A DNA stretch of 64,000 nucleotides from Hymenobacter sp. YIM 151858-1 (GTDB lineage Bacteria > Bacteroidota > Bacteroidia > Cytophagales > Hymenobacteraceae). Where the stretch lies: positions 1,550,001 to 1,614,000 of the forward strand of contig NZ_CP110136.1 in assembly GCF_025979705.1 (NCBI RefSeq), given 5' to 3'. The notes beneath the pieces were generated by a model. The model saw nothing but the letters and a program-made list of their open reading frames with translations, made no database searches and was not told the origin of the DNA. Numbering within the stretch: position 1 is the first letter of the stretch; every line of letters starts with the position of its first letter. Positions 1 to 64,000 of the stretch are shown here, one piece after another. The translations under genes were made by a program, and so were the position numbers.

Positions 1-1444
1 TGGTAATAATGATGTCTTGGCGGCCCATCAGGGCCTCCCGGTCGGCGGGTTGCAATGGCTCGTCGGAATCGTCGAGCAATTCGGCCAGCTTCACCACCGG
101 AATGTGTTCTTCCTGCACTTTGGCCAGCAACATGCCGCCAACCGCGTGCAACTGCTCGGGCCGCAACGAAACCACCGAATCGGTGTGCATCAGCGGCAAA
201 GCGTACGAGTGGCCATCGAGCTGGAACAACAAAGCGCCTTTAACGGCAATTGAGGTGGGCAGCACCAGCGTAAAGGTGGTGCCTTGGCCCAGCTGCGACT
301 CCACGCGCAGCTGACCACCTAGGGAGTCGATGGCGAGCTTAACAACGTCAAGACCCACGCCACGACCCGAAATTTCGGTCACCTGCTCCGCCGTCGAAAA
401 CCCGGCCTCGAACATCAGGCCGTACACTTCAACGTCGCTCAGCCGACTGGCAACATCGGCTGGGATTTGACCGCGCTCCACCGCCTTGCGCCGCACGCGC
501 TCCACGTCGATGCCGCGGCCATCGTCGATAATCCGGATCAGTACGTCGTCGCGCTCCGTTTGGGCCGAAAGCGTGAGATGTCCCATCGGCGATTTGCCAG
601 CCCGAGCACGCTCTTCGGGCGTTTCGATGCCGTGGCCGATGGCATTGCGCACCAAGTGCAGCAACGCATCGGTGATAATCTGCAGGATGTTCCGGTCAAT
701 CTGGATATCCTGCCCGCTGATGGTCAGCTCCACCTGCTTCTGCTCGGCGGTGGCTACGTCGCGCACTACCCGCGGAAACTTGTTGAACAGCGTACCCACC
801 CCTACCAGCCGGGCATCCATTACGGAATACTGCAGGTCGTCGGCCAGGCGGCTGAGGTGCGCGGCTACGCTCGTCAAACCGATGTCGCCGATTTCCTGGC
901 TTAGGGTCAGCACCCGGTCCCGATCAATAATCAGCTCGCCAACCAGATTGAGCAGGTGGTCGAGCTTTTTGATGGGGATGTAAACCAGGTCGGAAAGCTC
1001 CAGCTTACGGTTGGCATCCTCGTCGGAGTGCGTAACCTGGTTGGCATCCAGCACGGGTTCTTCCCCGCGCATCACCCGGTCGAGGTTGTCCAGCAAGTCC
1101 GTGCTTTCGGGCAAGGGCTGGTTGGCGCCTACTGCCCGGATCATTTCACCTAGGGCATCGATGCCCGCAAACAGCACCGGCACCAAAGTACCTGAGAAAG
1201 TGCGCTCCTTGCTGCGGATTTCGCCGAAGATGGTCTCCATCCGGTGAGCCACCTCGCCAATCTCGGTATAGCCCATGGCGCGGGCGTTGGCCTTCAGATT
1301 GTGCATCAGGCGAAACAGCTCCTGCAGGGCAGCCTCGTCGTCGGGGCGCTTCTCCAGCACCGAAATGTGCTGGCTCATGGCATCGTAAGCCTCAAGGGCT
1401 TCAGCCATAAACAATTCCCGGTATTCCTGTTCGCGCGATTTCAT
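1..1444 (-). CDS. cheA: Chemotaxis histidine kinase CheA (3' end outside window)
   Basis: I translated this from the reverse strand: an open frame of about 481 residues that runs off the left edge. The CheA order is visible: an N-terminal Hpt domain with phospho-acceptor His48 in LMHNLKANA, a dimerisation segment, then the ATPase with N-box (LVRNAIGHGIE), G1 (DDGRGID) and G2 (GRGVGLDVVK), and the beginning of a CheW-like regulatory domain. It would phosphorylate the CheY and CheB encoded just upstream. The ATG overlaps the cheB stop as ATGA, so the two are translationally coupled. Oddity: the N-box residue that is usually Asp (RNAIDHG) is Gly here, so ATP affinity may be unusual. The C-terminus is not visible. 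Confidence 0.95.
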   Translation of the reverse strand, partial: MKSREQEYRELFMAEALEAYDAMSQHISVLEKRPDDEAALQELFRLMHNLKANARAMGYTEIGEVAHRMETIFGEIRSKERTFSGTLVPVLFAGIDALGEMIRAVGANQPLPESTDLLDNLDRVMRGEEPVLDANQVTHSDEDANRKLELSDLVYIPIKKLDHLLNLVGELIIDRDRVLTLSQEIGDIGLTSVAAHLSRLADDLQYSVMDARLVGVGTLFNKFPRVVRDVATAEQKQVELTISGQDIQIDRNILQIITDALLHLVRNAIGHGIETPEERARAGKSPMGHLTLSAQTERDDVLIRIIDDGRGIDVERVRRKAVERGQIPADVASRLSDVEVYGLMFEAGFSTAEQVTEISGRGVGLDVVKLAIDSLGGQLRVESQLGQGTTFTLVLPTSIAVKGALLFQLDGHSYALPLMHTDSVVSLRPEQLHAVGGMLLAKVQEEHIPVVKLAELLDDSDEPLQPADREALMGRQDIIIT

Positions 1445-2589
1445 CGGGTGTAGGAGCGGGAAACGGAAGTGGTTCGAGAAATCATCGGCCACGGGCGCAT
1501 CAACTGCGTGTGGGCGGTGATAAAGCGTGGTACCTCGCCCAGGCCGAGCACCACGGATGCATGACCGGCACGAATCACCGATTTGGGCATGCCGAATACT
1601 ACTGAGGATTCTTCGTCTTGGGCAACCACCGTACCACCAAGCTGACGCACTACCTGCGCGCCCACCGTACCGTCGTTGCCGAGCCCGGTTAGTACCACAC
1701 CTAGGGTATTGCGGCCCGCCGCACGGGCAGCAGAGCTAAGCAGCAAGTCGATGCTGGGTTCGTCGAGCGCGGGGGCCTGCTCAGTAGCCGGAGCCAGCCA
1801 CATTTGTTGCGGCAGGTTACCCTTAATCATCCAATGACGGCCGCCGGGTACCACCACTACTTTGCCGGGTTCGAGTCGCATGCCGGCAGCACCCTCTACT
1901 ACGGGTAGCACCGAGGCTTTGCGCAGCCGCTCCACCAGCGTAGCAGTAAAAGAAGCAGGCAAGTGCACCGCCACTACCACTGCATGCCGAAGTCCGGATT
2001 GCAGCTGACGCACAATTTGCTCAACCGCGGCGGCTCCGCCCGTCGATCCACCCAGTACCACTACTCCCCTAGGTGGAGCACTGCTAATGCGGCGGAAGGC
2101 AGCCACCTCTGTTGCAGCTTCGGCTTTATGGGCTGAGCGGCCAACGTACGCCGTAACCGCCCGACGTGAGCGGTGTACCTTTCTGAGCAGCTCCCGACGA
2201 GCAAACGCATGATCGGGGTGCGAGGCGGCGGGCATGGGGCCGAAATGATCGTACACGCCCCATTTGGCAGTGTCGCGCAGCAGGCCCGTGCGCAGTTGCT
2301 GAGCCGAATACAAGAGCACAGGCCCCCGGTGGCAGGTAGCCAGCTTGTGCAGCATTGGAGCCGATTGATCTCCTACAATAACCAAATCAGGACGCAAAGC
2401 CTTGGTTTGATCGAGCAGGTCGTCGGCGCCGGAGGTGCTGGCAACAATCCGCACGTCTTTGTCCGTCCGCAGCACCTTGGACACAGCCAGGCGCACCAAA
2501 CCTGGCAAATCGCCAAGTAGGATGGTCAGGGGTGCAGGCACAACGGAAGAATTAAGCAAAACGAAACTGGTGGATTGAAGTAGGCTCAT
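1441..2589 (-). CDS. cheB: Chemoreceptor methylesterase CheB
   Basis: The 382-residue protein has an N-terminal receiver-like domain and a C-terminal CheB methylesterase domain. Methylesterase signatures are visible: the nucleophile loop GGSTGG, a His in VVAVHLPASF and the catalytic Asp in TGLGNDG. It removes methyl groups from receptor glutamates and opposes CheR, which is not in the window. The receiver is degenerate: the usual Asp-Asp pair reads GD (ILLGDLP), while the expected phospho-Asp position is kept (IVGDQSAP), so phospho-control may be weakened. I chose the ATG at 2589; a TTG start at 2616 is possible but less likely. It lies between cheY and cheA and overlaps cheA by 4 nt. Confidence 0.9.
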   Translation of the reverse strand: MSLLQSTSFVLLNSSVVPAPLTILLGDLPGLVRLAVSKVLRTDKDVRIVASTSGADDLLDQTKALRPDLVIVGDQSAPMLHKLATCHRGPVLLYSAQQLRTGLLRDTAKWGVYDHFGPMPAASHPDHAFARRELLRKVHRSRRAVTAYVGRSAHKAEAATEVAAFRRISSAPPRGVVVLGGSTGGAAAVEQIVRQLQSGLRHAVVVAVHLPASFTATLVERLRKASVLPVVEGAAGMRLEPGKVVVVPGGRHWMIKGNLPQQMWLAPATEQAPALDEPSIDLLLSSAARAAGRNTLGVVLTGLGNDGTVGAQVVRQLGGTVVAQDEESSVVFGMPKSVIRAGHASVVLGLGEVPRFITAHTQLMRPWPMISRTTSVSRSYTR

Positions 2590-2636
2590 CCAAGCAGCTG
2601 CATTGGGCAGCTGCAAGCAAGCTCAGGCAAAAACTG

Positions 2637-3038
2637 TTACTCAGCGGTTTCCGAGGCCGACGAATCGCCACCGGCTTCTTGCAAAGCACTGCTCACGATT
2701 TCGAGTACTTTGTCCTCGGAGAAAGGCTTCACGATGTAAGCCATGGCACCGCTTTCGAGTGCTTCGTTTACAATAACCTCCTGCCCTACTGCGCTGCACA
2801 TCACGATTTTTACATCGGGCAGCTCCAGTCGGATGTCCTTCAGTACTTCCAAACCGGTGTTATCAGGCAAAATTACGTCGAGCGTAATCAGGTCAGGCTT
2901 GGTTTGCGAGGCCAGCTCCCGTGCCTGTTGGCCATTGGCGGCCTCGCCCACCACGTCGTAACCGGCGTCGGTGAGCATGTTCTTCAGCATCGTGCGCATG
3001 TAGAAAGAATCGTCTACGATGAGGATGCGGTTTTTCAT
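2637..3038 (-). CDS. cheY: Single-domain response regulator CheY
   Basis: The 133-residue protein is a stand-alone receiver domain. It has the acidic pair D9/D10 in LIVDDS, phospho-acceptor D54 in LITLDVILP, the switch residue in VMCSAVG and the conserved Lys in IVKPFSED. It has no output domain, so it should signal by protein-protein contact after phosphorylation by CheA. It sits between cheW and cheB in a leftward operon with 47-48 nt gaps. No flagellar genes are present, so the target is more likely gliding or type IV pilus machinery, or a non-motility output; that is inference. Confidence 0.93.
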   Translation of the reverse strand: MKNRILIVDDSFYMRTMLKNMLTDAGYDVVGEAANGQQARELASQTKPDLITLDVILPDNTGLEVLKDIRLELPDVKIVMCSAVGQEVIVNEALESGAMAYIVKPFSEDKVLEIVSSALQEAGGDSSASETAE

Positions 3039-3086
3039 AGGGTCGGATTAAGAAGACTCGATGGGAAAATGTGATTGAAATCAGGG

Positions 3087-3689: not shown

Positions 3690-3708
3690 CCAATTACCTT
3701 ACAGCGAG

Positions 3709-8499: not shown

Positions 8500-10938
8500 A
8501 TGGTTAAGAACCTCGTCATCGTGGAGTCGCCTGCCAAAGCCAAAACGATTGAAGGCTACCTAGGCAAAGACTTTATCGTTAAGTCAAGCTTCGGACACGT
8601 GCGCGACTTACCGAAGGACAACAACGCCATTGACATTCAGAACGGCTTTAAACCGACTTATGTCGTTTCGCCCGATAAGCGCGAGGTAATCTCTCAGCTG
8701 AAGAAGCTGGCCAAAGAAGCGGAAACCGTGTGGCTGGCAAGCGACGCCGACCGCGAGGGCGAGGCCATTTCGTGGCACCTGGCCGAAACGCTCGACCTGA
8801 CGAATGCCAAAACCCGGCGCATCGTTTTCCGCGAGCTGACGAAGAACGCCATCCTGAACGCCATCGATTCGCCCCGCGAGATTGACCTGAATCTGGTAAA
8901 CGCCCAGCAGGCCCGCCGCGTGCTCGACCGCCTCGTGGGCTTCGAGCTTTCGCCGGTGCTCTGGAAGAAGGTGAAAACCGGCCTCTCGGCCGGTCGTGTG
9001 CAGTCGGTGGCGGTGCGCCTGGTGGTGGAGCGCGAGCGGGAAATTCAGCAGTTCAAAACCTCGTCGGCCTACCGCGTGGTGGCACGCTTTGACGCGGGCA
9101 ACGGCGCCGTGCTCGAGGCTGAGTTGCCCCAGCGCCTGAAAACGCTGGAGGAAGCCGAGGCATTTCTGGCCCGGTGCGCAGGTGCAGCCTACCGCATCGA
9201 AACGCTGGAGAAAAAGCCCGGCAAGCGCAGCCCCGCGCCGCCCTTTACTACCTCTACCCTGCAGCAGGAAGCCTCGCGCAAGCTGGGCTTTTCGGTGGCG
9301 CAAACCATGAGCGTTGCGCAGCGTCTGTACGAGGCCGGCAAGATCAGCTACATGCGTACCGACTCGGTGAACCTGTCGCAGGAAGCCCTGAACGGTGCCA
9401 AGGCCGAAATTACCCGCGCCTACGGTCCGGAGTACTCCTACACGCGTCAATTCAAAACCAAAGCCGCTTCGGCTCAGGAAGCGCACGAGGCCATTCGCCC
9501 CACCGACTTTTCGTTGGTGAAAGCCGGCGAAGATTCGGCCGAGCAGCGCCTCTACGACCTCATCCGCAAGCGGGCCCTGGCCTCGCAAATGGCCGAGGCC
9601 GAAATTGAGCGCACGGTCGCTACCATTGGTATCAGCACCCAGCCGGGCGTAACGCTTACGGCCACGGGCGAGGTTATCACCTTCGAGGGCTTCCTGAAAG
9701 CATACAGCGAATCGAAAGATGAGGATGATAACGACGGCGAATCGTCGTTTTCGCGGGGTCTGCCCCCGCTCAACGTAGGCCAGCAGCTGCCGCTGCAGCG
9801 CCTGTCGGCTACGGAGCGCTACGCGCAACCGCCCGCTCGCTACACCGAAGCTTCGCTGGTAAAAAAGCTGGAAGAAATGGGCATTGGCCGCCCGTCGACC
9901 TACGCGCCTACCATCAGCACTATTCAGAAGCGCGGCTACGTGGAGAAAGACACCCGCGAGGGCAAGGAGCGCAAGTTTCATGTGCTGACGCTCGACGGCC
10001 AGCAGGTAAACACCGAAACCAAAACCGAAGTCTACGGCGCCGACCGCGGCAAGCTGTTCCCGACGGATACGGCCATGGTGGTGAACGACTTTCTGGTTGA
10101 GCACTTCCCGCTGATTATCGATTACTCCTTCACGGCCAAAGTGGAGGAAGAATTCGACCGTATTGCGGAGGGCCAGGAAGCCTGGGAGCAGATGATTGCG
10201 GGCTTCTACGGCACTTTCCACGAAACCGTGGAGCGCGGCAAAGAGGTGGAGCGCGCCGATGTGGGCACTACGCGCCTGGTGGGTGAGCACCCCGAAACCG
10301 GCGACAAGATTTACGCCAAGCTGGGCCGCTTTGGGCCCTATGTGCAGCTGGGTGAAGCCGAAGGCGAAACCAAGCCCGCCTACGCCAACCTGCGCAAAGG
10401 CCAGTTTATTGAAACCCTGACGCTGGAGGAGGCGCTGGAGTTGTTTAAGCTGCCGCGCGTGGTGGGCCAGCACGAGGAAAAGGACATGACGGCGGCCATC
10501 GGCCGCTTCGGACCCTACATCCGCCACGACGGCAAGTTTTACTCGCTGGCCAAAGGCCAGGACCCGCATACGGTTACGCCCGAAGAAGCCGTTCAGCTAA
10601 TCGCCGACAAGCGCAAGCAAGAGGCCGAAAAGGTGATTCTCACGTTTGAGCCCGAAGGCCGTGCCGATGTGCAGGTGCTCAACGGCAAGTACGGCCCCTA
10701 CATCGTGTGCGGCGGCAAAAACGTGAAAATCCCGAAAGGCGAAGAGCCCCGTAGCCTAAGCCTAGCGCGTTGCCTGGAGCTGGCCGAGGCTACGCCCGAT
10801 AAACCCGCCCGCGGCCGCTTCGGGGCCAAGAAAACGGCCGAACCCGCTGCCAAAGCTCCGGCTAAAAAGGCCACCGCAGCCGCCAAAAAGCCCGCCGCTA
10901 AGAAAGCTACAGGCACCACCAAAAAAGCCGCTAAGTAG
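8500..10938 (+). CDS. topA: DNA topoisomerase I (type IA)
   Basis: The 812-residue enzyme relaxes negative supercoils by single-strand passage. Its N-terminal TOPRIM domain shows VIVESPAKAKTIEGYLG and the acidic ASDADREGEAISWHL motif. The catalytic tyrosine is Tyr284 in GKISYMRTDS. The C-terminus has repeated GRFGPYVQLG, GRFGPYIRHDG and GKYGPYIVCGG modules that lack the zinc-ribbon cysteines of the E. coli enzyme, as in several other phyla. It ends in a Lys/Ala-rich tail of about 35 residues, probably a non-specific DNA-binding extension. It is followed directly by a strong terminator. Confidence 0.97.
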   Translation: MVKNLVIVESPAKAKTIEGYLGKDFIVKSSFGHVRDLPKDNNAIDIQNGFKPTYVVSPDKREVISQLKKLAKEAETVWLASDADREGEAISWHLAETLDLTNAKTRRIVFRELTKNAILNAIDSPREIDLNLVNAQQARRVLDRLVGFELSPVLWKKVKTGLSAGRVQSVAVRLVVEREREIQQFKTSSAYRVVARFDAGNGAVLEAELPQRLKTLEEAEAFLARCAGAAYRIETLEKKPGKRSPAPPFTTSTLQQEASRKLGFSVAQTMSVAQRLYEAGKISYMRTDSVNLSQEALNGAKAEITRAYGPEYSYTRQFKTKAASAQEAHEAIRPTDFSLVKAGEDSAEQRLYDLIRKRALASQMAEAEIERTVATIGISTQPGVTLTATGEVITFEGFLKAYSESKDEDDNDGESSFSRGLPPLNVGQQLPLQRLSATERYAQPPARYTEASLVKKLEEMGIGRPSTYAPTISTIQKRGYVEKDTREGKERKFHVLTLDGQQVNTETKTEVYGADRGKLFPTDTAMVVNDFLVEHFPLIIDYSFTAKVEEEFDRIAEGQEAWEQMIAGFYGTFHETVERGKEVERADVGTTRLVGEHPETGDKIYAKLGRFGPYVQLGEAEGETKPAYANLRKGQFIETLTLEEALELFKLPRVVGQHEEKDMTAAIGRFGPYIRHDGKFYSLAKGQDPHTVTPEEAVQLIADKRKQEAEKVILTFEPEGRADVQVLNGKYGPYIVCGGKNVKIPKGEEPRSLSLARCLELAEATPDKPARGRFGAKKTAEPAAKAPAKKATAAAKKPAAKKATGTTKKAAK

Positions 10939-11037: not shown

Positions 11038-11934
11038 ATGTTCTCGACATTGCCTCTGCCGGCCCTAGGTCTGGCACTGCTCCTGGCTACGGGCAGCCCC
11101 CTCGCCCCTCCCCATTTCGTTGCCCAGCCCAAACCACCTAGGGCCGGAGTAACCGACGGCAACGCCTACCGCTGGCTCACGCACCCCTACCACGAGCAGC
11201 AGACGTTGGCGGCACGCTTTGCACCGCCCGCGGGTTGCCAGCGCGTGGCCGCTGCACCCAACTCTTTTGCGGAGTGGTTGCGCCACTTGCCGCTGCGCCC
11301 GAAAAACACGCCCGTGTACCTGCACAACGGCCGCCTGAAAACGCCGCAAACCGTGCACGCCGCCGTGCTCGATATCGACACGGGCCCGCGCGATTTGCAG
11401 CAGTGCGCCGATGCCGTGATGCGCCTGCGGGCCGAGTATCAGTTTACCCGCAACTACCGGCAAATTCATTTTCACCTGACCAGCGGCCACGACATCTGGT
11501 TCGGCGACTGGGTTGAGGGCCGGGGCTTCCGGGTGCAGGGCGAAGAAGTACTGCCCGCACCCAGGGCCGCCGAGGCACCCACGCACGCCGCCCTGCGCCG
11601 CTACCTCGATCAGATTTTCACCTACGCCGGTTCGCTCTCGCTAAGCCGTGAGCTGCGGCGCGTGCCCCTGAACGATGTGCAGCCAGGCGACGTGTTCATC
11701 AAGGGCGGCGCGCCGGGGCATGCGGTAATGGTGCTTGATGTGGCCGAGCACGCTACCACCAAACGCCGCTACGCGCTGCTGGCCCAAAGCTATATGCCGG
11801 CCCAGGACATGCACGTGCTCCGCAACCGCCCCGGTCTGGGCCTGGGGGCCTGGTTTCTCATCGACCCCGCCGCCGAACTGATTGAAACGCCCGAGTGGGA
11901 TTTCACGGCTGCGCAGCTGATGCGCTGGCAGTAG
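11038..11934 (+). CDS. DUF4846 domain protein, exported
   Basis: The 298-residue protein has an N-terminal hydrophobic signal segment (about residues 5-20). The rest matches my recollection of DUF4846: YRWLTHPYHEQQTLAARF, SFAEWLRHLPLRP, the block around LQQCADAVMRLRAEY, TYAGSLSLSRELRRV, and GAPGHAVMVLDVAEH followed by LLAQSYMPAQDMHVL. The family is widespread in Bacteroidota and has no established function; its Gly-His and Gln-Ser-Tyr blocks look like a possible hydrolase or transglutaminase-like active site, but that is inference. It stands alone between topA and the sirtuin gene. Confidence 0.85.
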   Translation: MFSTLPLPALGLALLLATGSPLAPPHFVAQPKPPRAGVTDGNAYRWLTHPYHEQQTLAARFAPPAGCQRVAAAPNSFAEWLRHLPLRPKNTPVYLHNGRLKTPQTVHAAVLDIDTGPRDLQQCADAVMRLRAEYQFTRNYRQIHFHLTSGHDIWFGDWVEGRGFRVQGEEVLPAPRAAEAPTHAALRRYLDQIFTYAGSLSLSRELRRVPLNDVQPGDVFIKGGAPGHAVMVLDVAEHATTKRRYALLAQSYMPAQDMHVLRNRPGLGLGAWFLIDPAAELIETPEWDFTAAQLMRWQ

Positions 11935-12011
11935 CGGCTTAACTGCCCTAGGTGGTTTTGCGTTGAACAGCACCGGGCAGGGCGGTAAGCCAAGCCACTA
12001 TATTTCGGACC

Positions 12012-17674: not shown

Positions 17675-17714
17675 TTGCGGCTGCTGTTGGCACCTAGGCA
17701 GTTGCCCTAGGTGC

Positions 17715-24915: not shown

Positions 24916-25093
24916 GTAGGATTTCCGGTTTCGCTACACCAGGCCTGCGCCGTGCGCAGGGGGCCTGGCTTTGCCCAATTGGTTTCATCCCGCGGCCGCT
25001 CGCGTTGCATTGGCCGCTGCTACCCGCGCATGTGCCCTAGGTAGCGGCGTGGCAATGCACTGCGGGCAGGCGTGCGGGCATCCTTCCTAGCTT

Positions 25094-28559: not shown

Positions 28560-29033
28560 ATGGCTAACGTTTCCAAAGTCCGGGAGTCGGGCGTGCTTGT
28601 GGAGGAATTTGCCCTAGGTCCGGAAGCCGGCCAAGCGGCCGGCAGCGGCGCGGAGGCAACCCATACTCTGCAACGAACGCCGGAGGCAGCACTGCCCGCC
28701 GATGCTGTTGATGCCTCGCTTTGCCCGCTGTGCGCCGAACCGCTGGGCTGGCACGAAACGCCCTGCTTCAGCACGCAGCCCGAAAGCGCTCCGGACCCCG
28801 ACGAAGGCCCAACCGCCAGCCCCACGTTTTACTACCCCCCGGCCACCATTTTTGCTTTCAACCTAGGGCAGGCCGTTCAGGCAGCTTACAACAAACGGGC
28901 GCACCGCATTATCTGGCGCGGGCAAGTGAAGGAGCGCCACCCGGCCACCGGCCTGGTGCACCGCGTAAACGTGTACCGCCTGAACGACGGGTACTGGGAT
29001 TGTTACCGCGAAGACGACTTGCAAGTAGCCTGA
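28560..29033 (+). CDS. Hypothetical protein with CPLC motif
   Basis: I do not recognise this 157-residue protein. It is soluble, with an acidic Ala/Glu-rich N-terminal half, a CPLC motif near residue 55 (one possible metal-binding pair) and a more ordered C-terminal half (RIIWRGQVKERHP, VNVYRLNDGYWDCYREDDL). The C-terminal part looks like a small beta-rich domain. It stands alone with no near partner on the same strand. Confidence 0.65.
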   Translation: MANVSKVRESGVLVEEFALGPEAGQAAGSGAEATHTLQRTPEAALPADAVDASLCPLCAEPLGWHETPCFSTQPESAPDPDEGPTASPTFYYPPATIFAFNLGQAVQAAYNKRAHRIIWRGQVKERHPATGLVHRVNVYRLNDGYWDCYREDDLQVA

Positions 29034-29061
29034 CTGCCCCTGCTGCCGCCGCGGCTGCGAC

Positions 29062-29436
29062 CTAGGGTTGCCCGCGGCCGAGCTGAGCCTGCCGGGCCGC
29101 TACCCACGCACGCGCTTGGGCCATGCTTGGGGCCGCGTATTGGGTACCCCAGAACACGAACTCGCTTCCGCAGCCAACGCCCCGCTCGCAGTAGCGCGTT
29201 TGCTCGATGCTGTGCAGCACCTCCAGCACGTAGGCACAGTCGATAAGGTCGGCATCAGGGAAATAGTAGTCCAGCGTTGCCTGCACAGCGGTGCTGGCGC
29301 GTTGCGCAAACACATAAGCCAGCCACTCGGCAAAGCCTTCGGCGTAGGCCGGCTGCTCCAGTGCGCTTTTTGGCGGTGCCGGCGCAGTAATTGCCGCGGC
29401 GTGCTTGCGGCCAGCTATGCTCATCGGGCGCTTCAT
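29062..29436 (-). CDS. Hypothetical protein
   Basis: I do not recognise this 124-residue protein. The central part is likely helical (AYAEGFAEWLAYVFAQRAS, then VQATLDYYFPDADLIDC) and holds three Cys near the C-terminal half (CAYVLEVLHSIEQTRYCERGVGCG). No signal peptide is visible. I preferred this strand because the amino-acid composition is protein-like; the opposite strand also has an open frame rich in Arg and Cys that looks like a shadow. Confidence 0.55.
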   Translation of the reverse strand: MKRPMSIAGRKHAAAITAPAPPKSALEQPAYAEGFAEWLAYVFAQRASTAVQATLDYYFPDADLIDCAYVLEVLHSIEQTRYCERGVGCGSEFVFWGTQYAAPSMAQARAWVAARQAQLGRGQP

Positions 29437-29994: not shown

Positions 29995-30208
29995 CCTCGG
30001 CCAGGCTGCCCCGTCGCTTGCTGCCCTGCTCCCCCTCAACCGCCTCGGCACCTAGGCCCCCTGGCCCTAGGTTCATTCTCTGGGCTTGGGTTGAAAGACC
30101 AGCAACCCGTAGCCACCAACTTAGCATGCCGGGCAATAGCCCCGGCCAGGGCCTGCGGGCCATTGCGGCAGCTGCTTACTTTGCGAAGTTGTAGTTGCCC
30201 CCCAATTT

Positions 30209-32347: not shown

Positions 32348-32480
32348 TTATGTTTGGCTTTACGAGAATCAGAAGCTTAAGTCGCTACTTCAGCCGCGTA
32401 CTTATCACGACGCAAGTAGCTGGCTTTAAGCATCGAAAGCCGCCCACCCCACAAGGCGGGCAGACGGCTTCCGAAAGTTG

Positions 32481-32554: not shown

Positions 32555-32589
32555 AGTGCGGCAGCAAATGTTGCCACGCTATAAAAAAT

Positions 32590-32616
32590 CGGGCTTCCCG
32601 AATTACGGGAAGCCCG
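32590..32616 (-). terminator. Terminator after tRNA-Ser
   Basis: CGGGCTTCCCG, loop of 5, CGGGAAGCCCG, followed on the reverse strand by ATTTTTT: an 11-bp perfect stem with a U-tract immediately downstream of tRNA-Ser. It separates tRNA-Ser from the two following tRNAs. Confidence 0.8.
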
Positions 32617-32707
<91 letters not shown>

Positions 32708-36113: not shown

Positions 36114-36157
36114 AAACAGGTGCCGCGGCCCATGGGCCGCGGCACCTGTTTTTTTAC
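36114..36157 (+). terminator. Terminator of the thiolase gene (loop-less palindrome)
   Basis: Positions 36114-36151 form a 38-nt perfect palindrome centred on CCATGG and followed by six more T. It can end transcription as a classic terminator, with the central bases as loop. Confidence 0.85.
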
Positions 36158-36327
36158 CTAGGGCTGTGTTGTGCCCTAGGTGCTCCGGGGCTGAGTTGTA
36201 AGAAGCAGGTTTGCAGCACCTTTACGCCAAATGCATTGTTGAGCCCACTACCCGACAGCGCATCTTCAGCTTCGGCACAATTTTTCCTGCACCAGCGCTA
36301 TTAATTCGAAAGCGCATATTTGACGGC

Positions 36328-37795: not shown

Positions 37796-38300
37796 GCCCT
37801 AGGTGGCCTCGGCGAAAGAGTGGGGTGCGCCCTGCACATTTATATATGATGTAGCATATAATTAGGGGGGGCTGCAGCGTTAATGAAAAAATCAGGGGCC
37901 GCTGTAACCATTGCCCTAGGTCGGAGTTTCCACCTTCGCATTCAGGCATCGAAAAAAATTTTACCGCCAGATGCATCCTACGAAATTGTTCGTAGTCTTT
38001 GGTTTGAATGGTGAGTGAAAAGGACGGCGGACCGCGGCCGTCGTTCTACCCGCTCTCGTTCGGCTTACCCATCAGCCAATTTGTTGCGGCTGTTGGTACT
38101 TACCGAACTCCGGCTGGCCTACAACTAGGCTGTACTGGTAATCCGCATGCTGCTGGCAGCAACTTAGTTGGCCCAGCACCTAGGAAAAAACTTTATTACC
38201 TAGGCAACGCCTCTCTCCGACTTTCCATCTACCCTTCTGAAAACGCCCCACAAGCATAGCAGAAGGCGAATTGAAGATTAACAATAAAAAAATATAGCAA

Positions 38301-39297: not shown

Positions 39298-41772
39298 ATG
39301 TTTGCACTATACTCATCCAAAGCCCTGTGGTGCGCTCTTCCGGTAGTGGTTTGCACGTCGATGGCCGCTCAGGCCCAACAAGCTCCTGGCTCGGTAGCCG
39401 GCACTTTGCTCGACAAGGCCAACAACCAGCCACTGCCCTTCGCCAACGTGGTACTGCTTCGTGCTCAAGACTCGACACTGGTAACCGGCACGGCTACCTC
39501 CGAAACCGGCCGCTTCAAGCTCGATAAAGTAGCGCCCGGCACCTACGCCCTGCGGGCCACGGTTTTGGGGTATCAGCCGCTGCGCCGCACGGTTACGGTG
39601 GGTACCAACGGCGGGGATGTGGAGCTGGGCACGGTGACGCTGCAGCCCACCACGCAACAGCTGAAGGGCGTGACGGTAACGGGTGAGCGCGCCGCTGTGC
39701 AGGATAACCTGGATAAAAAGGTCATCAACGTAGAGAAAGACCTGACGAGCGTAGGTGGCACGGCCGTAAACGTGCTGCAAAACGTGCCTTCGGTGGCCGT
39801 ATCACCCGATGGCACCGTGAGCATGCGCGGCAGCTCCAACATCACCATCCTTATCGACGGTAAGCCCACCGGCGCGGCTAACGGCGGCGTGGGCAACCGG
39901 CTGGAGCAAATCCCGGCCAGCAGCATCGAGAAGGTGGAGGTAGTAACCAACCCCTCGGCCCGCTACGATGCGGCTGGCGCGGGTGGCGTCATCAATATCA
40001 TTCTCAAAAAGCAGAAGAAAGACGGCTGGAACGGCCAGGCTACGGCCACCATCGGCACCCGCGACAAATACAACGGCAGCCTAAGCCTGAACCGCCGCGC
40101 TGGCAAGCTGAACCTGTTTGCCTCGGCCGATGTGCGCGATATGGACTTCCGCTCGACGATGTGGATGGACCAGTACACCACCGTGGAGGGCTACGCGCTG
40201 CGCACCGCGCAGCAGGGCGGCAACCTGCGCCAAAACAAAACCTACAACGGCCGCCTGGGCTTCGATCTGAACCTGCCCGCCAACCAAAGCCTGACCGTTG
40301 CCTTTGAGCCGAACCTGAACCGCAGCCGCAACACCGGCTGGCAAGTAGCCACCCTTACCGATGCCGCCGGCTCGCGCCGCATTGCCAGCACCCTAGGTGT
40401 GCGCGAAAACGTAGACAACCACGAAGCCTCCGCCGATTACCGCCGCACCTGGGAGCAGCACAAGGGCCGCGAGCTGACGGCTAACCTAGGCTACACCTAC
40501 CTGATGGCCAACGTGGTAGTGGGCCAGCGCAACACCGAAGGCCAAGTTACCGACGACCTGCGCGAGTGGAAGCAGGACATCGGTGTGAACCTGCACGGTG
40601 TGGCTGGGCAGGCCGACTATGCGCACCCCCTAGGTGAAAAAACCCGCCTCGACCTAGGCCTGAAGGGCCAGTGGCAAACCAACGACGGCACCTACGACTT
40701 CATGCGCCAGGACGCCGAAGGCGAAGAGGCCAAGCGCGTAGCCGACCGCTCGTACGCCTACACCTTTACCGAGTACACCCAAGCCGCCTACGCCACCTAC
40801 CAAACCGAAGTAGGCAAATGGAACGTGCAGGGCGGCCTGCGCGCCGAGTACACCAACACCAGCGGCGCCGTGAAAAACGGCCAAGGCCCCTTCAAGCTGG
40901 AGTACCTCAACCTGTTTCCGTCGGCAACGGTGGTGCGCACCTTGCCTACTGCCGACCAGCGCGTGCAGTTAAGCTACTCGCGCCGCCTGAACCGGCCCAA
41001 CTTTATGCAGCTGTTGGCTTTCCCGCTCTACCAGGATCAGCGCAGCTACCGCATCGGAGACCCCAGCCTGCGCCCCGAGTACATCAATGCCCTGGAGCTG
41101 GGCCACCAGATTACGCTGGGCCAGGCCAGCCTAAGCTCGACGCTGTTCTACCGCCAAACGAACAACGCCATTCAGCGCCTCACCAAAATTGATACGCTGG
41201 CTACGCGCCTCTACGGCAACGGTGCGGTTATTACGGGCCAGTACGCCGACAACTTTGGCCAGGCCTACAGCTACGGCGCCGAAATGTCCTGGAACCAGCC
41301 GCTGGCGAAGTGGTGGCGCGTAACGGCCAACGGCTCGTTGTTTCAGACGAACGTAACGGCCGCCACGGGCAACGAATCGAGCCGCCGCACGGTGTCGGGC
41401 ACGGCCCGCCTGATGAACTCCTTCAGCCCCACGCCCAAGCTCGATGTGCAGCTCACCGGCAACTACCGCGCGGCCGTACTCACGGCGCAAGGCCGGGTAG
41501 CGCCCGTAGGCTCGGTGGATATTGCCTTGCGCCAACGCCTCTTCAACGATAAAGCCGCGCTTACCCTGCGCGTGTCCGACATCTTCGACACGCAGCGCAA
41601 CCGCGTGGAGGCCTTTGCCCAAACGCCGACTACCGATTACCGCGCCACCATGTACAACAAGTGGGAGTCGCGCGTGGGCTACCTCGGCTTCTCGTGGTAC
41701 ATGGGCAAAAACAAGCCGCCCAAAAAGATTGAAAACCAGCCGCAAGGCGGCGGTGGCGGCTTCGGTGGCTAA
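39298..41772 (+). CDS. Outer-membrane beta-barrel receptor (CarboxypepD-reg / plug / barrel)
   Basis: The 824-residue protein has a signal peptide (LWCALPVVVCTSMAAQAQQ), a CarboxypepD-reg-like domain at about 30-115 (GSVAGTLLDKANNQPLPFA), a plug-like domain (GVTVTGERAAVQDNLDKKV, LQNVPSVAVSPDGTVSMRG, IPASSIEKVEVVTNPSARY) and a long barrel of the OMP_b-brl_3 type. It lacks an evident TonB box, as is usual for this family. It likely imports or secretes an oligomeric substrate; which one is unknown. It is a paralogue of the protein at 43596, with long shared blocks. Confidence 0.88.
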   Translation: MFALYSSKALWCALPVVVCTSMAAQAQQAPGSVAGTLLDKANNQPLPFANVVLLRAQDSTLVTGTATSETGRFKLDKVAPGTYALRATVLGYQPLRRTVTVGTNGGDVELGTVTLQPTTQQLKGVTVTGERAAVQDNLDKKVINVEKDLTSVGGTAVNVLQNVPSVAVSPDGTVSMRGSSNITILIDGKPTGAANGGVGNRLEQIPASSIEKVEVVTNPSARYDAAGAGGVINIILKKQKKDGWNGQATATIGTRDKYNGSLSLNRRAGKLNLFASADVRDMDFRSTMWMDQYTTVEGYALRTAQQGGNLRQNKTYNGRLGFDLNLPANQSLTVAFEPNLNRSRNTGWQVATLTDAAGSRRIASTLGVRENVDNHEASADYRRTWEQHKGRELTANLGYTYLMANVVVGQRNTEGQVTDDLREWKQDIGVNLHGVAGQADYAHPLGEKTRLDLGLKGQWQTNDGTYDFMRQDAEGEEAKRVADRSYAYTFTEYTQAAYATYQTEVGKWNVQGGLRAEYTNTSGAVKNGQGPFKLEYLNLFPSATVVRTLPTADQRVQLSYSRRLNRPNFMQLLAFPLYQDQRSYRIGDPSLRPEYINALELGHQITLGQASLSSTLFYRQTNNAIQRLTKIDTLATRLYGNGAVITGQYADNFGQAYSYGAEMSWNQPLAKWWRVTANGSLFQTNVTAATGNESSRRTVSGTARLMNSFSPTPKLDVQLTGNYRAAVLTAQGRVAPVGSVDIALRQRLFNDKAALTLRVSDIFDTQRNRVEAFAQTPTTDYRATMYNKWESRVGYLGFSWYMGKNKPPKKIENQPQGGGGGFGG

Positions 41773-49883: not shown

Positions 49884-51872
49884 ATGAAATATGAAAACGG
49901 GCGTTGGGGCGTTGGCACTGGCATGATGATGCGCTGTTTGCTGCTGGGCTTGTTGCTGGTGCTGAACCTAGGGCCCGCACTGGCGCAGGTGTGCACTAAT
50001 GATGCCTTTGGCCCCACCGCCTGCTTTCGGGTGTACGACGACGCCACCGGCCAGCTGCTCGATGTACCCGGCCAGCCCGTAACAGTGCTTTGCGCTGGCT
50101 CGCGCATTCGGTTGCGCGACTGCAGCGGCCAGAACTACCCGCGCCAGAACATCCGGTACATTTTCGATTGCTTTTCGACGACCAACACCAACCTCGATAC
50201 CGTAACCACCCGCACCGTGCCCAACACGCCGGGCACACTCATTATTCAGCAGAACACCCCCAACCCCGGTGGCCCAGGCTACCCCACGGGCACAGGGCAG
50301 CTGTTTTCGCGGCGGTTTGAGGTGCGCGCCCGGCCGCAACCCGATTTTACGTTTGCGTACTGCGGCACGGCCCGTACGCAGGTGCAAATCACCATTCTGC
50401 AGCCGCAGGCCAACGTGCAGTACGAGGTGCAAGTAGGCAGCGGCCCGCGCCAGCCGGTTACGCAACCCACGGCCGTATACGCTGCCACACCCGGCGCAAC
50501 TAACATTACAGTATACGGCAGCTACCGCGACGCCCGCATTTGCGAAGGCGCCACCACCAAGCCCTACCCTGTGCAAGTTGCCCCGCAAAGCCCGGTGTTG
50601 CAGCGCTTGGCCGTGCAGGGCAATACGCTCGAGTTGGGCTTTGCCGCGTTGCAGCCCGAGTACCGCTACGTGCTCGAGCAAGATGGCAGCAGCGTGGCCA
50701 CGCTGCCGGCCGGTAGCACCACCTTTTCGCTGCCCAACGGCGCCCTAGGTAGCTGCTACCGCTTGCGCCTTACCGATGCCTGCGGTACGTTGTCGCTGCC
50801 CTCGGCGCAGCTTTGTCCGGTTAGCCTCACGGCCACTTCGGCCAACGGGCAAAACCAGCTGAACTGGGTGCAGCCACCCGGCAGCAACGTTACCGATTAT
50901 CAGATTAGCTGCAACGGGCAACTGCTGACCACCGTGCCAGCTACCACCACGGCTTACACCGATGTGGCCGTAACCTGCGGGCAAACGTACCGCTACCAGG
51001 TTGCGGCGCGCACCGCCAACGGCACCTCGCTCTCCGATACGCGCACGGTGCAAACCAGCGTGGGGCAGCCCGCCGCCCCGCCGCAGCTGTCGGTGTCCAT
51101 CGCGCTTGATAATACCGTGGAAATAACCACGCTCGGGCCGGCCCTAGGTGCCGGCACCCGCCTGCAGCTACGCCGCCGGGTGGGCAGCGCCGCCCCGCAG
51201 TTGCTGCCGCCCGCCCAGCAACTGCCCGTTACCGACCAGCCCGGCACGGCCTCGCCCCGGCGCATTCCGTGCTACACGGGCGTGCTGATTGATGAGTGCG
51301 GCACTACTTCGGCCGAGGGCCCGGCGGCCTGCCCGCCCACCCTAGGTGCCCAAGCCGCCAACGCCGACGGCAGCCAGGTGCGCCTGCGCTGGACGGAGCC
51401 CTCGGGCCAGGGCACCGGCTGGACGTACCGCCTCCTCACCCTCGATGCCGCCAACCGCGAGCTGCGCAACCAGCCCGTAACCGACACCACGTACCTCGAT
51501 GCCCAGCCCCCCGCCGAGCGCCAGGTGCTGCGCTACCGCCTGGCCGCCACCAGCAATGGCCGCACCGTGTACAGCAACATTGCCACCGTAAGCCGCCCGG
51601 TGGTGGTGGTGGTGCCCAACGCCTTCAGCCCCAACGCCGACGGCCTGAACGACGTGCTGGAGGTGAAAGGCCGTTTCCTGAACACGTTCAACTTCACCAT
51701 CTTCGACCGCAACGGCGTGGTGGTGTTCCGCGGCACCGACCGCACCCAAACCTGGGATGGCCGCGTGCGCGGCGTGGTAGCCGCGCCGCAGGTTTTTTCG
51801 TTTCAGTTCGAAGCCATCGACGAAACCGGCCAGCGCGTAGTGCAACGCGGCACCATTACGCTGCTCAGGTAG
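49884..51872 (+). CDS. Secreted protein with type B T9SS sorting domain
   Basis: The 662-residue protein has a signal peptide (MMMRCLLLGLLLVLNLGPALAQ within the first 35 residues), an N-terminal region rich in Cys, several fibronectin-III-like beta domains (LNWVQPPGSNVTDYQISC, LRWTEPSGQGTGWTYRL) and a C-terminal gliding-motility-associated (CHU_C/type B) sorting domain (VPNAFSPNADGLNDVLEV, FTIFDRNGVVVFRGTDR, WDGRVRG). It is exported by T9SS; the substrate role is unknown, maybe adhesion. ATG 49884 is the first in frame; ATG 49923 is an alternative close to the signal. Confidence 0.85.
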   Translation: MKYENGRWGVGTGMMMRCLLLGLLLVLNLGPALAQVCTNDAFGPTACFRVYDDATGQLLDVPGQPVTVLCAGSRIRLRDCSGQNYPRQNIRYIFDCFSTTNTNLDTVTTRTVPNTPGTLIIQQNTPNPGGPGYPTGTGQLFSRRFEVRARPQPDFTFAYCGTARTQVQITILQPQANVQYEVQVGSGPRQPVTQPTAVYAATPGATNITVYGSYRDARICEGATTKPYPVQVAPQSPVLQRLAVQGNTLELGFAALQPEYRYVLEQDGSSVATLPAGSTTFSLPNGALGSCYRLRLTDACGTLSLPSAQLCPVSLTATSANGQNQLNWVQPPGSNVTDYQISCNGQLLTTVPATTTAYTDVAVTCGQTYRYQVAARTANGTSLSDTRTVQTSVGQPAAPPQLSVSIALDNTVEITTLGPALGAGTRLQLRRRVGSAAPQLLPPAQQLPVTDQPGTASPRRIPCYTGVLIDECGTTSAEGPAACPPTLGAQAANADGSQVRLRWTEPSGQGTGWTYRLLTLDAANRELRNQPVTDTTYLDAQPPAERQVLRYRLAATSNGRTVYSNIATVSRPVVVVVPNAFSPNADGLNDVLEVKGRFLNTFNFTIFDRNGVVVFRGTDRTQTWDGRVRGVVAAPQVFSFQFEAIDETGQRVVQRGTITLLR

Positions 51873-52333: not shown

Positions 52334-53381
52334 TACCCCAGCTGATGGCGACTACAACGCCTCCGATGTAGCCGTAGTCATCCTGAACTGGAACGGGCAG
52401 CGCTGGCTGGAGCAGTTTCTCCCGTCGGTGCTGGCCCACTCCGACAATGCCCGCGTGGTAGTGGCCGACAACGCCTCCTCCGATAACTCGGTAGCCTGGC
52501 TGGCCGCGCACTACCCGCAGGTGCAAGTGCTTCAGCACGCTGAAAACCTAGGTTTCTGCCAGGGCTACAACCAGGCCCTAGGTCAGCTGCCCGGCTACAA
52601 CTACTACGTGCTGCTCAACTCCGATGTGGAGGTAACTGCCGGCTGGCTGCGGCCCCTGCGCGAACTGCTCGAAAGCAACTTGAAAGCAGCCGCCGTTCAG
52701 CCGAAAATCAGAGCCTACAACGCCCGTACCGAGTTCGAGTACGCCGGGGCGGCCGGCGGCTACCTCGATCGGCTGGGCTACCCCTTCTGCCGCGGCCGCC
52801 TGTTCGATGCCCTCGAAACCGACCTAGGCCAGTACGACGACCCGCGCCGCGTGGCCTGGGCTACCGGCGCCTGCATGATGGTGCGCGCCGCCGCCTGGCA
52901 CTCGCTGCAAGGCCTGGAGCCCGAGTTTTTCGCGCACATGGAGGAAATAGACCTCTGCTGGCGACTCTGGAATGCCGGCCACGAGGTTTGGTACCACGGC
53001 GGCAGCACGGTGTACCACGTGGGCGGCGGCACCTTGCACAAATCAAACCCGCGCAAAACCTACCTCAACTTCCGCAACGGCTTGGCTTTGTTGTATAAGA
53101 ACCTAGCCCCGGGCGAGTTGTGGCCTACCCTGCTTACCCGCTTTGCACTCGATTATGTAGCCGCAGCGCAAATGCTGACTAAAGGCAACCCCGCCGATGC
53201 CGCGGCCATCGTGCGGGCGCATCGGCACTTCTTCGGTAAGCTAAGCTACTGGCGCGAGCGGCGCAGGCTGGCCAGGCCGCAACTGCCCGCTGCCCAACGC
53301 CCCGGCACCTACCTGGGCAGTTTGGTATGGGCCTACTTCGGCCAAGGCAAACGGCGCTTTTCAGAACTGAAATTCAACTGA
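52323..53381 (+). CDS. GT2-family glycosyltransferase
   Basis: The 352-residue enzyme has the GT-A core of family 2: VAVVILNWNGQRWLEQFLPS, a nucleotide-binding region (ADNASSDNS), the DxD-like LLNSDVEVTAGWL, and GACMMVRAAAW with EEIDLCWRLWNAGHEVWYHG. It is likely rhamnosyl- or other sugar-transferring, for envelope polysaccharide. The only start available before the conserved core is TTG at 52323, inside the ebfC stop region (11-nt overlap). It has no membrane segment. Confidence 0.9.
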   Translation: MAYNTPADGDYNASDVAVVILNWNGQRWLEQFLPSVLAHSDNARVVVADNASSDNSVAWLAAHYPQVQVLQHAENLGFCQGYNQALGQLPGYNYYVLLNSDVEVTAGWLRPLRELLESNLKAAAVQPKIRAYNARTEFEYAGAAGGYLDRLGYPFCRGRLFDALETDLGQYDDPRRVAWATGACMMVRAAAWHSLQGLEPEFFAHMEEIDLCWRLWNAGHEVWYHGGSTVYHVGGGTLHKSNPRKTYLNFRNGLALLYKNLAPGELWPTLLTRFALDYVAAAQMLTKGNPADAAAIVRAHRHFFGKLSYWRERRRLARPQLPAAQRPGTYLGSLVWAYFGQGKRRFSELKFN

Positions 53382-57053: not shown

Positions 57054-57101
57054 AAACGAACACGCCCCGCCGGACCTAGGTCCGGCGGGGCGTGTTCGTT
57101 T
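57054..57101. repeat. Loop-less 48-bp perfect palindrome centred on CCTAGG
   Basis: Positions 57054-57101 read identically on both strands, with CCTAGG exactly at the centre. The palindrome lies between pdhB and the convergent membrane gene and probably serves as a shared 3' end; U-tract is short (GTTT). Confidence 0.85.
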
Positions 57102-58503: not shown

Positions 58504-58626
58504 TGGCTGCAAAGGTGTACCTTTTGCCCGAGGCCGCGTCAAACACGCTGCGGCCTTCTGCAGCACGTTTGCTCAACCCTGATTGAACTGCACGGCGGCC
58601 ATACCGGCCAATTGTTGTCTGGCACT

Positions 58627-62247: not shown

Positions 62248-62697
62248 CTAAAAGCGGCGGATGAGTAGTACGCCAACCAGTAACAAAAGTATGCCGGCCA
62301 CGCGGCCCACCGATACGCGCTGCATCGGCAGGCCCAGCAGCCCAAAATGATCGAGCGCCACCGAGAGCAACAGCTGCCCGGCAATCAGCAGCCCGAACGT
62401 AAGGGCCACGCCCAGCCGCGGCGTGAGCACGGTTACGGAGCCCACATAAAACGCCCCGATTACCCCGCCCAACCACACGGCCGGCGACTCGGAGCGGGCG
62501 GCCCCTGCCAGGCTGCTCAGGCGCATGCCCGAACCTAGGGCAATCAGCAGCAGCGTTACGGTGCCAATGGCAAACGATGCCAGGGCGGCAATTACGGGTC
62601 CTCCTCCGGCGCGGGCCAGACGGGCATTCAGGGCCGCCTGCACGGGCAGCAATGCGCCCATGCTCACGGCCAGCAGCATCAACAACAAACGATTCAT
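62248..62697 (-). CDS. YdcZ/DUF606-type DMT membrane protein
   Basis: The 149-residue protein has about five membrane segments starting with LLLMLLAVSMGALLPVQAAL. The block NARLARAGGGPVIAALASFAIG and GGVIGAFYVGSVTVLTPRLG matches the DUF606 half-DMT pattern. It likely dimerises to make a transporter; the substrate is unknown. Confidence 0.82.
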   Translation of the reverse strand: MNRLLLMLLAVSMGALLPVQAALNARLARAGGGPVIAALASFAIGTVTLLLIALGSGMRLSSLAGAARSESPAVWLGGVIGAFYVGSVTVLTPRLGVALTFGLLIAGQLLLSVALDHFGLLGLPMQRVSVGRVAGILLLLVGVLLIRRF

Positions 62698-63051: not shown

Positions 63052-63447
63052 ATGTCATCGAACCTCGATTACCTCAACCCCAACCTCGTACCCCTGGAGC
63101 AAAAAGTAATAGCCTACCTCGAAGCCGAAGAGGACTTGCGCCAAACCGAAGTTGAGGCCCGCAACCTGCAAACGGCGCACCCCTCGGGGGCCGAAGTAGC
63201 GGCCAACAACTTTATCCAGAACATTCCGGCCGTGGAGCCGCCCCGCCCCCTGGCCGAGGTAGAGCAGCAACGGCAGCAGCTGCAGCAAACCATTGCCCAG
63301 CTGCGCGACGAGATAATGCAACTGCTGCCTGCCCGCGACGAGTGGGTGAAGGTGAACCTAGGCTACGGCCCCAGCCGCGTGGGCGCTTTCCGGCTCGACA
63401 ACCCCAAACCCGGCCAGCCCGAGTACATGCTACGCATCGTGCACTAA
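63052..63447 (+). CDS. Hypothetical coiled-coil protein
   Basis: I do not recognise this 131-residue soluble protein. It has two helical, Glu/Gln-rich stretches likely to form coiled coils (KVIAYLEAEEDLRQTEVEAR, EVEQQRQQLQQTIAQLRDE), separated by a Pro-rich linker, and a C-terminal beta-like part (WVKVNLGYGPSRVGAFRL). The start at 63052 is the first ATG after a leader and codes for a well-composed N-terminus. Confidence 0.6.
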   Translation: MSSNLDYLNPNLVPLEQKVIAYLEAEEDLRQTEVEARNLQTAHPSGAEVAANNFIQNIPAVEPPRPLAEVEQQRQQLQQTIAQLRDEIMQLLPARDEWVKVNLGYGPSRVGAFRLDNPKPGQPEYMLRIVH

Positions 63448-63470
63448 TTGCGCCCGACCAATACCAAACA

Positions 63471-63505: not shown

Positions 63506-63508
63506 TTG

Positions 63509-63580
63509 TACTCCGTAGGGGAATCGAACCCCTGTTGGCAGAATGAAAATCTGCAGTCCTAACCCCTAGACGAACGGAGC
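63509..63580 (-). tRNA. tRNA-Glu (TTC)
   Basis: The reverse strand gives GCTCCGTTCGTCTAGGGG, anticodon loop ATTTTCAT (anticodon TTC), T-loop TTCGATT and acceptor ACGGAGT. CCA is not encoded. The gene lies opposite a terminator and has an exact -7 element upstream. Confidence 0.95.
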
Positions 63581-63598
63581 GTTTGTCGTTTGACGATG

Positions 63599-63630
63599 CA
63601 AAGGTAAGCAAAGCCTTTTTATTTCCGCAA
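63599..63630 (-). promoter_or_regulatory. Promoter of tRNA-Glu
   Basis: On the reverse strand TTG (63630-63628) and TACCTTTG (63606-63599) with a 21-nt spacer form an exact Bacteroidota promoter about 19 nt upstream of the tRNA. Confidence 0.7.
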
Positions 63631-63847
63631 GCCTGAATCGTGGTTCAGGCCACAAAAACGCACTTCACGGCCTTACCCATCTGATTTCCAACTACAAAAT
63701 TTAACCTGCGGGTAACTTTCGCTGGGGAGGCTGTTGTGCCCACCTGGGTGAAAACCCGACCGCAGCGTGCCGGAACGGCTCGGCTGCAACCAAACACGCG
63801 CTTGCCCGGTTGCTGGACTGGCGTGCTTGGTTGCAGGTGGCCGATGG

Positions 63848-64000
63848 TTAGATTTTTTCCGGAAGCAGCAGGGCGTCTTCGTAATTGCCGAGCACGGGTT
63901 GGCCGTTGCTGGCCTGCGTTACGGCCTCTACCAGCAGCTTGCCGCCCACGAAGGCCCCTTTCCACGACTCGCCTAGGCCGCCGAACACCTCTTCCCGGTC
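63848..64000 (-). CDS. C-terminal end of a protein, possibly aldehyde dehydrogenase (partial)
   Basis: I read a reverse-strand frame open at the right edge, ending at TAA 63848-63850: DREEVFGGLGESWKGAFVGG, then KLLVEAVTQASNGQPVLGNY and EDALLLPEKI. The GLGESWKGAFVGG pattern recalls C-termini of 1-pyrroline-5-carboxylate dehydrogenases, but only 50 residues are visible, so the product is a guess. Confidence 0.5.
   Translation of the reverse strand, partial: DREEVFGGLGESWKGAFVGGKLLVEAVTQASNGQPVLGNYEDALLLPEKI

Follow-up and report, generated by a model that had tools for sequence, protein, structure and literature searches.

A 64,000-nucleotide stretch of the chromosome of Hymenobacter sp. YIM 151858-1 (NZ_CP110136.1, positions 1,550,001 to 1,614,000; hereafter the window) is densely studded with the hexamer CCTAGG, and we have found that this hexamer is the core of a directional, bipartite and clade-specific word, ACCTAGG(G>C)C, which recurs throughout the genome and is one of several such words in the Hymenobacteraceae. 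The word is accompanied at a fixed spacing by a weaker second box, gCTGCC, which lies 22 bases upstream of ACCTAGG on either strand, in genes as well as in intergenic regions. Judged from its sequence and distribution, the word together with this distal box may be a clade-specific self-DNA signal, whose most likely reader would be a DNA-uptake receptor; this explanation, absent from the initial annotation of the window, fits the evidence best, and we put it forward tentatively.

A strict and directional word

Word counts, distal-box tests and gene contexts were obtained partly from whole genomes and partly from sampled stretches, the main sample being 464 kb of the source genome (G000; 4.62 Mb in 3 contigs). 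CCTAGG occurs exactly 88 times in the window, the number that had been estimated by eye in the initial annotation, and the zero-order expectation of 20.8 agrees with the value of about 21 per 64 kb given there. In 100 dinucleotide shuffles the window held 13.5 +/- 3.7 copies and never more than 23, and there are 5,325 copies in the whole of G000; the excess is therefore real and genome-wide. It stands far above the dinucleotide shuffles; under a Markov model of maximal order, on the other hand, the hexamer itself is unremarkable (88 against 77.4 in the window), because the excess is already contained in the 5-mers CCTAG and CTAGG. Nor is it a general property of CTAG hexamers, since TCTAGA, ACTAGT and GCTAGC occur 0, 0 and 6 times in the window. 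The reversed word GGATCC (75 copies in the G000 genome), which was also part of the reversed-word controls across genomes, is a poor control because it is itself avoided (5 against 52 expected in 464 kb).

The description of CCTAGG as a palindrome did not hold, as the unit is directional and its distal box one-sided, and flanks that extend the palindrome surround only 6 of the 88 sites in the window, 2 each of CCCTAGGG, ACCTAGGT and GCCTAGGC. In an extract of PMC1939737, GCCTAGGC appears among palindromes whose effect is unknown. The flanked forms CCCTAGGT and ACCTAGGG are found 34 and 24 times in the window, and when the sites are oriented and piled up, ACCTAGGG in one orientation accounts for 58 of the 88. 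ACCTAGGS, where S is G or C, was seen 79 times in the window against 3.5 expected. The top words in the 464 kb of G000, with their expectations under a trinucleotide model, were ACCTAGGG (329 against 8.2), ACCTAGGGC (223 against 3.7) and CACCTAGGGC (122 against 1.2). One-mismatch variants of ACCTAGGGC, its last two degenerate positions aside, reached 0 to 3.7 times expectation; the word is therefore strict, and codon use is not a sufficient explanation of the excess.

Distribution among genomes and words of sister clades

ACCTAGGS was counted in 197 genomes, and the genus was represented by 8 of them. Three of these carry the word, namely G000 (4,558 copies), G005 (4,682) and G007, Solirubrum puertoriconensis MC1A (4,831), whereas the other five hold 25-67 copies. 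Hymenobacter cavernae (G079), H. polaris (G058) and G160 follow with 1,824, 581 and 491, and all the remaining genomes have at most 242. The word is confined to one clade of the genus.

Related genomes carry other words. In H. cavernae the form differs, being ACCTAG[G/C]T (ACCTAG 1,007 against 165 in 400 kb), and no distal box was found in that 400-kb sample; the dialects of G079 and G199 are as dense as 2.5-2.7 per kb. In five Pontibacter genomes AAGTATAA is present in 3,503-7,030 copies, compared with 352-419 in four other Pontibacter and 37-497 in nine other genomes of the same search, and G203, of a second Pontibacter group, uses AGGTATAG instead (186 against 6.2 in 200 kb). When the 77 named loci that are 12 kb or longer were screened, 30 gave some word, in several cases weakly, and 47, most of them from Hymenobacter, gave none; the sensitivity of this screen is low, as it missed L014 and L075 though their words show in another count. 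Candidate words in the sampled loci include GGGGCCCC/AGGGCCCC in L047, L048 and L043 (Hymenobacter nivis, H. coccineus and a metagenome-assembled genome), CTACCCC/CCTACC in L007 and L012 (other Hymenobacter), and AATATT- or ATATTGC-type words in L063 and L074 (Adhaeribacter). The CACTCACTC signal of Rufibacter was rejected as an iterated word, being a tandem repeat. In the open-licence literature we found no report of an iterated word in Hymenobacteraceae.

The distal box and the A+T wave

CTGCC stands at position -27 in 24 sites of the G000 sample against 1.1 expected, and in 30 against 1.1 in an independent sample of G005. When the 1,047 sites of the two genomes are pooled, it is found 54 times at -27, 23 times at -28 and 15 times at -26, where about 2 are expected, and at most 14 times anywhere else from -60 to +59 (at +8, adjoining the word). 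The best fixed-distance 4-mer has z = 28 here, compared with at most 10.7 for words unrelated to both boxes (64 words tested). Single-base information at -26 was discarded as proof of the box, since 3 of the 64 tested words, i.e. the word's own reverse complement, one other word and the reverse complement of the latter, were equally high; only the 4-mer test stands out. In whole genomes, CTGCC-N22-ACCTAGG was matched 245, 236 and 133 times in G000, G005 and G007, against about 11 expected per carrier genome by extrapolation from sampled frequencies, and 0, 0, 0, 1 and 0 times in G001, G002, G003, G004 and G006, 16 times in G079 and once in G058. The preponderance of the + strand among the matches listed is an artefact of the listing and is absent from the samples.

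The box is present at -27 in 36 of 432 intergenic, 18 of 387 sense and 18 of 492 antisense sites, and is therefore read on DNA. A hairpin or RNA element was rejected, as the distal box showed no dependence on the other flank (pooled G000 and G005 sites) and the sites lie in both orientations to genes. The box was also rejected as a piece of a longer repeat, given that the REP-like repeat of this genome (see below) lacks the word and that the boxed sites share no longer sequence by eye.

Between the two boxes, the A+T content of intergenic sites rises and falls with a period of about 10 bp, with crests of 0.54 at -14 and 0.48 at -4 and troughs of 0.32 at -19 and 0.31 at -8. Of 67 controls, those not overlapping the word had a scaled power of at most 0.30 and one overlapping it had 0.53, compared with 0.87 here, and the bump at -15 to -12 was the highest scanned window in both G000 and G005. 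The bumps in other dialects are weak (z 2.3-3.0 in G079; 3.7 and 2.8 in two Pontibacter groups) and lie partly in different places. The spacing of the boxes and the phase of the wave suggest that one protein or complex would contact about 37 bp across both boxes.

Conservation and gain of the word

In alignments of 164 kb, with one-mismatch words as controls, 120 of 183 aligned G000 sites were exact in G005 (controls, 203 of 464) and 56 of 96 in G007 (controls, 114 of 254), so the word is better conserved than near-identical words. Sites also turn over: G005 alone has 74 further ones and G007 alone has 50. Around the sites retained in G005, the conservation of the flanks is a little below average (0.852-0.854 against 0.868). 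In G001, which lacks the word, 1 of 109 sites was exact compared with 55 of 303 one-mismatch words, and at the aligned positions of the five genus members without the word mostly neither box is present. TGCC at -26 occurs in 3 of 247 aligned rows of these five relatives, in 19 of 208 of G000 and in 17 of 256 of the other carriers; for -27 to -25 together the numbers are 11, 35 and 27. The distal box thus goes with the word in the alignments, and an ancestral box that guided the gain was rejected on the count of 3 in 247, with the reservation that there may have been a slight ancestral contribution. Since nearly all the searched relatives lack the word, it would appear that a single clade acquired the word along with its box, and that it did so through base changes.

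A mutational or repair bias by itself, with nothing that reads the word, could produce such changes, and it is in line with this that the sites differ from the relatives without the word by base changes and few by gaps. We regard it as highly improbable: the relatives usually differ at 2-3 of the 7 positions and by varied substitutions, a box 22 nt away accompanies the word, and the bias is not shared by the prophage and the small contigs described below.

Placement along the chromosome and in acquired DNA

On the chromosome the word is found about once per 870 letters (1.2-1.3 sites per kb in the samples), and the spacing of the sites is nearly random (coefficients of variation 0.94 and 0.96). 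ACCTAGGS is almost equally frequent on the two strands of the G000 genome (2,272 and 2,286). No replication-strand bias was detected in 21 sampled stretches of G000 (283 + and 253 -) or 20 of G005 (275 + and 246 -), and an arc test on the sampled chromosome revealed no biased arc, as 457 (G000) and 730 (G005) of 2,000 random draws were as extreme. As the initial annotation had noted, the sites lie both in genes and between them, at 1.02 and 2.33 per kb respectively; these densities are approximate because the home-made gene finder from which the calls were taken (coding 76% in one run and 82-83% in the other) probably under-calls. The annotation's statement that the site mostly encodes Leu-Gly or Pro-Arg was likewise correct, with 264 and 22 of the 286 in-gene ACCTAGG frames in the 464-kb sample. 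Pairs of sites less than 40 bp apart are mostly inverted (28 of 35).

The word is sparse in recently acquired DNA, i.e. in the sampled small contigs and a prophage. The two small contigs, C2 and C3, presumed to be plasmids, have 3 ACCTAGG in the 80 kb sampled (60 of the 158 kb of C2 and 20 of the 101 kb of C3), and C3 encodes a TraG-type (conjugation-type) protein. The chromosomal segment 1,060,001-1,120,000 (L210, L211 and L086) has 2 in 60 kb, and the next stretch, L212, has 4 sites, all within its last 4 kb. Genes for a portal protein and a large terminase lie in L210, and more phage-type proteins are encoded in the later stretches; C1:1060001-about 1136000 (L210, L211, L086 and L212) is a prophage region, 60 kb long or more. 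Also encoded there are virion-type, GDSL-lipase and beta-helix proteins, as well as a giant protein whose DarB-like match is weak.

A word that is directional, over-represented on the chromosome and nearly absent from mobile DNA could also be a Chi-like recombination signal for a RecBCD/AddAB-type helicase-nuclease of the clade; a recombination signal and a nucleoid protein were both among the possibilities named in the initial annotation. We consider a Chi-like signal improbable, as the sampled chromosomes of G000 and G005 show no strand bias, the density of the word is about five times that of Chi in E. coli, and Chi is not known to have a second box 22 nt away. The main rival to an uptake signal is a chromosome-organising or repair DNA-binding protein with thousands of sites, for which selection for binding would keep the word and on which the DNA, as the distal box and the helical A+T wave would then indicate, would be wrapped or bent. 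A bipartite site with A+T phased at about 10 bp, a reading at the level of DNA in every gene context and the near-random chromosomal spacing all speak for such a protein. Nevertheless, the sampled stretches of the two small replicons and of the prophage, which are maintained all the same, contain hardly any sites, five of the eight genomes of the genus do without the word, and no such protein was found, so that we think this alternative rather unlikely.

Candidate readers and the uptake explanation

The initial annotation had suggested a link to a DNA methyltransferase, which found no support in the four Pfam families searched (E <= 0.001; PF07669 (Eco57I) and others fall outside the search). 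PF01555 is missing from G005 and PF02384 from G007, PF00145 is present among the three carriers in G000 only, and PF02086 is missing from all three, so none of the four is common to the carriers. As HIP1 (highly iterated palindrome 1)-rich genomes without a methyltransferase are on record (an extract of PMC4390886), the missing shared family weakens but does not kill a model, due to Elhai, in which an orphan CCTAGG methyltransferase and methyl-directed mismatch repair would ratchet the sites upward. A strict word at about 1 per kb, as for HIP1, would suit this model; the non-palindromic extension and the distal box would not, and the 2.5-2.7 per kb of G079 and G199 exceed its saturation near one per kb. 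We judge it quite improbable.

For the DNA-uptake signal, the following mechanism may be envisaged. Word and box would be read directly on double-stranded DNA, by a reader that would be part of a machine without type IV pili. Cells would favour naked DNA that bears the word, in taking it up or in recombining it; a taken-up fragment that replaces the resident allele would spread the word, which would accumulate on the chromosome to about 1 per kb where coding constraint permits. We infer, then, that a protein reads the word, that this reader acts in DNA uptake and that the copies are made by molecular drive. This explanation is suggested by the density of 1.2-1.3 per kb on near-equal strands, the direction and the second box of the word, its scarcity in the small contigs and the prophage, its conservation above one-mismatch words, the words of sister clades, the presence of the box in all gene contexts, the A+T wave of about 10 bp and the mostly inverted close pairs. 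It is also suggested by Riemerella, of the same phylum: according to an extract of PMC8459023, transformation of R. anatipestifer (Bacteroidota) needs ComEC, DprA, ComF and RecA, together with four proteins that have no homologue in the well-known machinery, and according to an extract of PMC7965970, R. columbina prefers its own DNA, the role of the frequent k-mers listed there being left open. These data make a pilus-free uptake machine with self preference plausible in this phylum.

A number of observations weigh against an uptake signal. No reader protein was found. ComEC was found in each of the 13 genomes searched, whether or not they carry the word. The T2SSE/type IV pilus ATPase family PF00437 has no match over the cut-off in the 13 genomes and one below it, in G113 (minor pilins were not searched); with type IV pilus-type ATPases missing from the carriers, the known machine for the DNA uptake sequences (DUS) and uptake signal sequences (USS) of other bacteria is therefore absent. 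PF18942, the Riemerella fimbrial-type partner, does not track the word: G000 has no match to it, those in G005 and G007 fall below the cut-off, and non-carriers have matches too. The A+T bump was not seen in the smaller G007 sample (190 sites), and the flanks of sites conserved in G007 are not clearly lower in conservation (0.851-0.873 against 0.865). In-gene sites are more often antisense (492) than sense (387), an asymmetry that may be partly codon constraint since the Leu-Gly frame is dominant. For DUS, inverted pairs are reported to be frequent, whereas the close pairs of the present word show no excess, and some words of sister clades are palindromic (ACCTAGGT, CCCTAGGG). Apart from these points, the comEC neighbourhood, compared in one carrier and one non-carrier, contained no candidate reader.

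It is conceivable, if doubtful, that the Hymenobacteraceae as a whole possess a hitherto undescribed family of self tags spread over their genomes, served by a common family of pilus-free uptake or recombination readers and raising barriers to gene exchange. Each clade might then write its own word, such as ACCTAGGGC with its helically phased gCTGCC box, ACCTAG[GC]T, AAGTATAA, AGGTATAG and others. A few lineages are known to have iterated genome-wide words, and what such words do has been worked out chiefly for uptake sequences and for Chi. In the present case one clade is set apart by about 4,600 copies and a second box, its near relatives being without the word and sister clades having other words, so that the origin of such words, their reader and any isolation of species by them become testable in cultured environmental bacteria. 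Should the word prove to be an uptake signal, none would have been established in Bacteroidota before it as far as the literature was searched, the Riemerella authors having only listed candidate k-mers, and a receptor unrelated to pilins would be implied. The density of the word can be used at once as a marker of prophage and other acquired DNA, and the word could be added to donor DNA in attempts to transform these species.

Sites and other features of the window

The sites mapped in the window are given in Table 1.

Table 1. CCTAGG sites, bipartite sites (CTGCC box + 22+/-1 nt + ACCTAGG) and word pairs in the window
Feature	Position	Strand	Remark
CCTAGG (88, of which 79 are ACCTAGGS)	1..64000	.	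scattered, genes and intergenic; ACCTAGG 46 on +, 39 on -
Bipartite site	2068..2102	-	
Bipartite site	8531..8564	+	within topoisomerase I gene (8500-10938)
Bipartite site	11064..11096	-	
Bipartite site	11947..11980	-	
Bipartite site	25036..25069	-	
Bipartite site	28613..28645	-	
Bipartite site	29034..29066	+	
Bipartite site	51341..51373	-	
Bipartite site	62505..62539	+	
Bipartite site	63329..63362	+	
Inverted word pair	17692..17712	.	closely spaced
Inverted word pair	30050..30072	.	closely spaced
Inverted word pair	36156..36181	.	closely spaced
Inverted word pair	34005..34043	.	divergent
Inverted word pair	40629..40658	.	divergent
Direct word pair	38178..38204	+	exception to the inverted tendency
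Direct word pair	52547..52583	-	exception to the inverted tendency

A perfect 48-bp inverted repeat centred on CCTAGG lies at 57054-57101, just downstream of the open reading frame 57103-58566 (- strand). REP-like repeats around CCCCTCCTCAGATGAGGAGGGG occur at 55689-55710 and 55922 and also in L084, L088, L089, L090, L094, L096, L098 and L099; they are often paired about 80-275 bp apart, and the 10-mer CCCCTCCTCA has 39 matches on both strands of the 464 kb. Three tRNA genes (Arg-TCT, Pro-TGG and Ser-GCT) are clustered in the window at 32271-32707, and a tRNA-Glu gene stands apart from them at 63508-63580. Besides GGATCC, the palindromes CGATCG (18 against 246) and TCGCGA (22 against 157) are strongly avoided in G000, and the avoidance of all three is seen in samples of G000, G005, G007, G001, G006 and G079, i.e. 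with and without the word.

Comparison with known systems

Chi sequences are strand-biased, and no second box 22 nt away is known for them. The present word resembles Chi in being directional, over-represented and chromosome-borne, and differs from it in having no strand bias, in its higher density and in its bipartite form. The analogy with HIP1 of cyanobacteria drawn in the initial annotation survives in part: like HIP1 and the alternate HIPs, the word is strict and short, occurs about once per kb and is replaced by other words in other clades, whereas it is not palindromic in this clade, has a distal box and has no common methyltransferase among the four families. According to an extract of PMC4390886, HIP1 mostly goes with methyltransferases, and the HIP1 extensions reported there by Elhai all keep the palindrome.

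The differences from the DUS of Neisseriaceae and the USS of Pasteurellaceae are that the present word belongs to Bacteroidota, that no type IV pilus-type ATPase was found, that its distal box lies 22 nt upstream, that close pairs are not in excess and that some of the sister words are palindromic; no uptake sequence is known to be a palindrome. A helically phased extended USS exists in Haemophilus. On the other hand, the word shares with DUS and USS its short and directional form, its density of about 1 per kb on both strands, its conservation, its sparseness in acquired DNA, its dialects between clades and the tendency of close pairs to be inverted. For neisserial DUS, an extract of PMC7371117 gives one copy per 400-1,100 bp and a drastic drop in islands, and an extract of PMC2397512 reports close inverted pairs.

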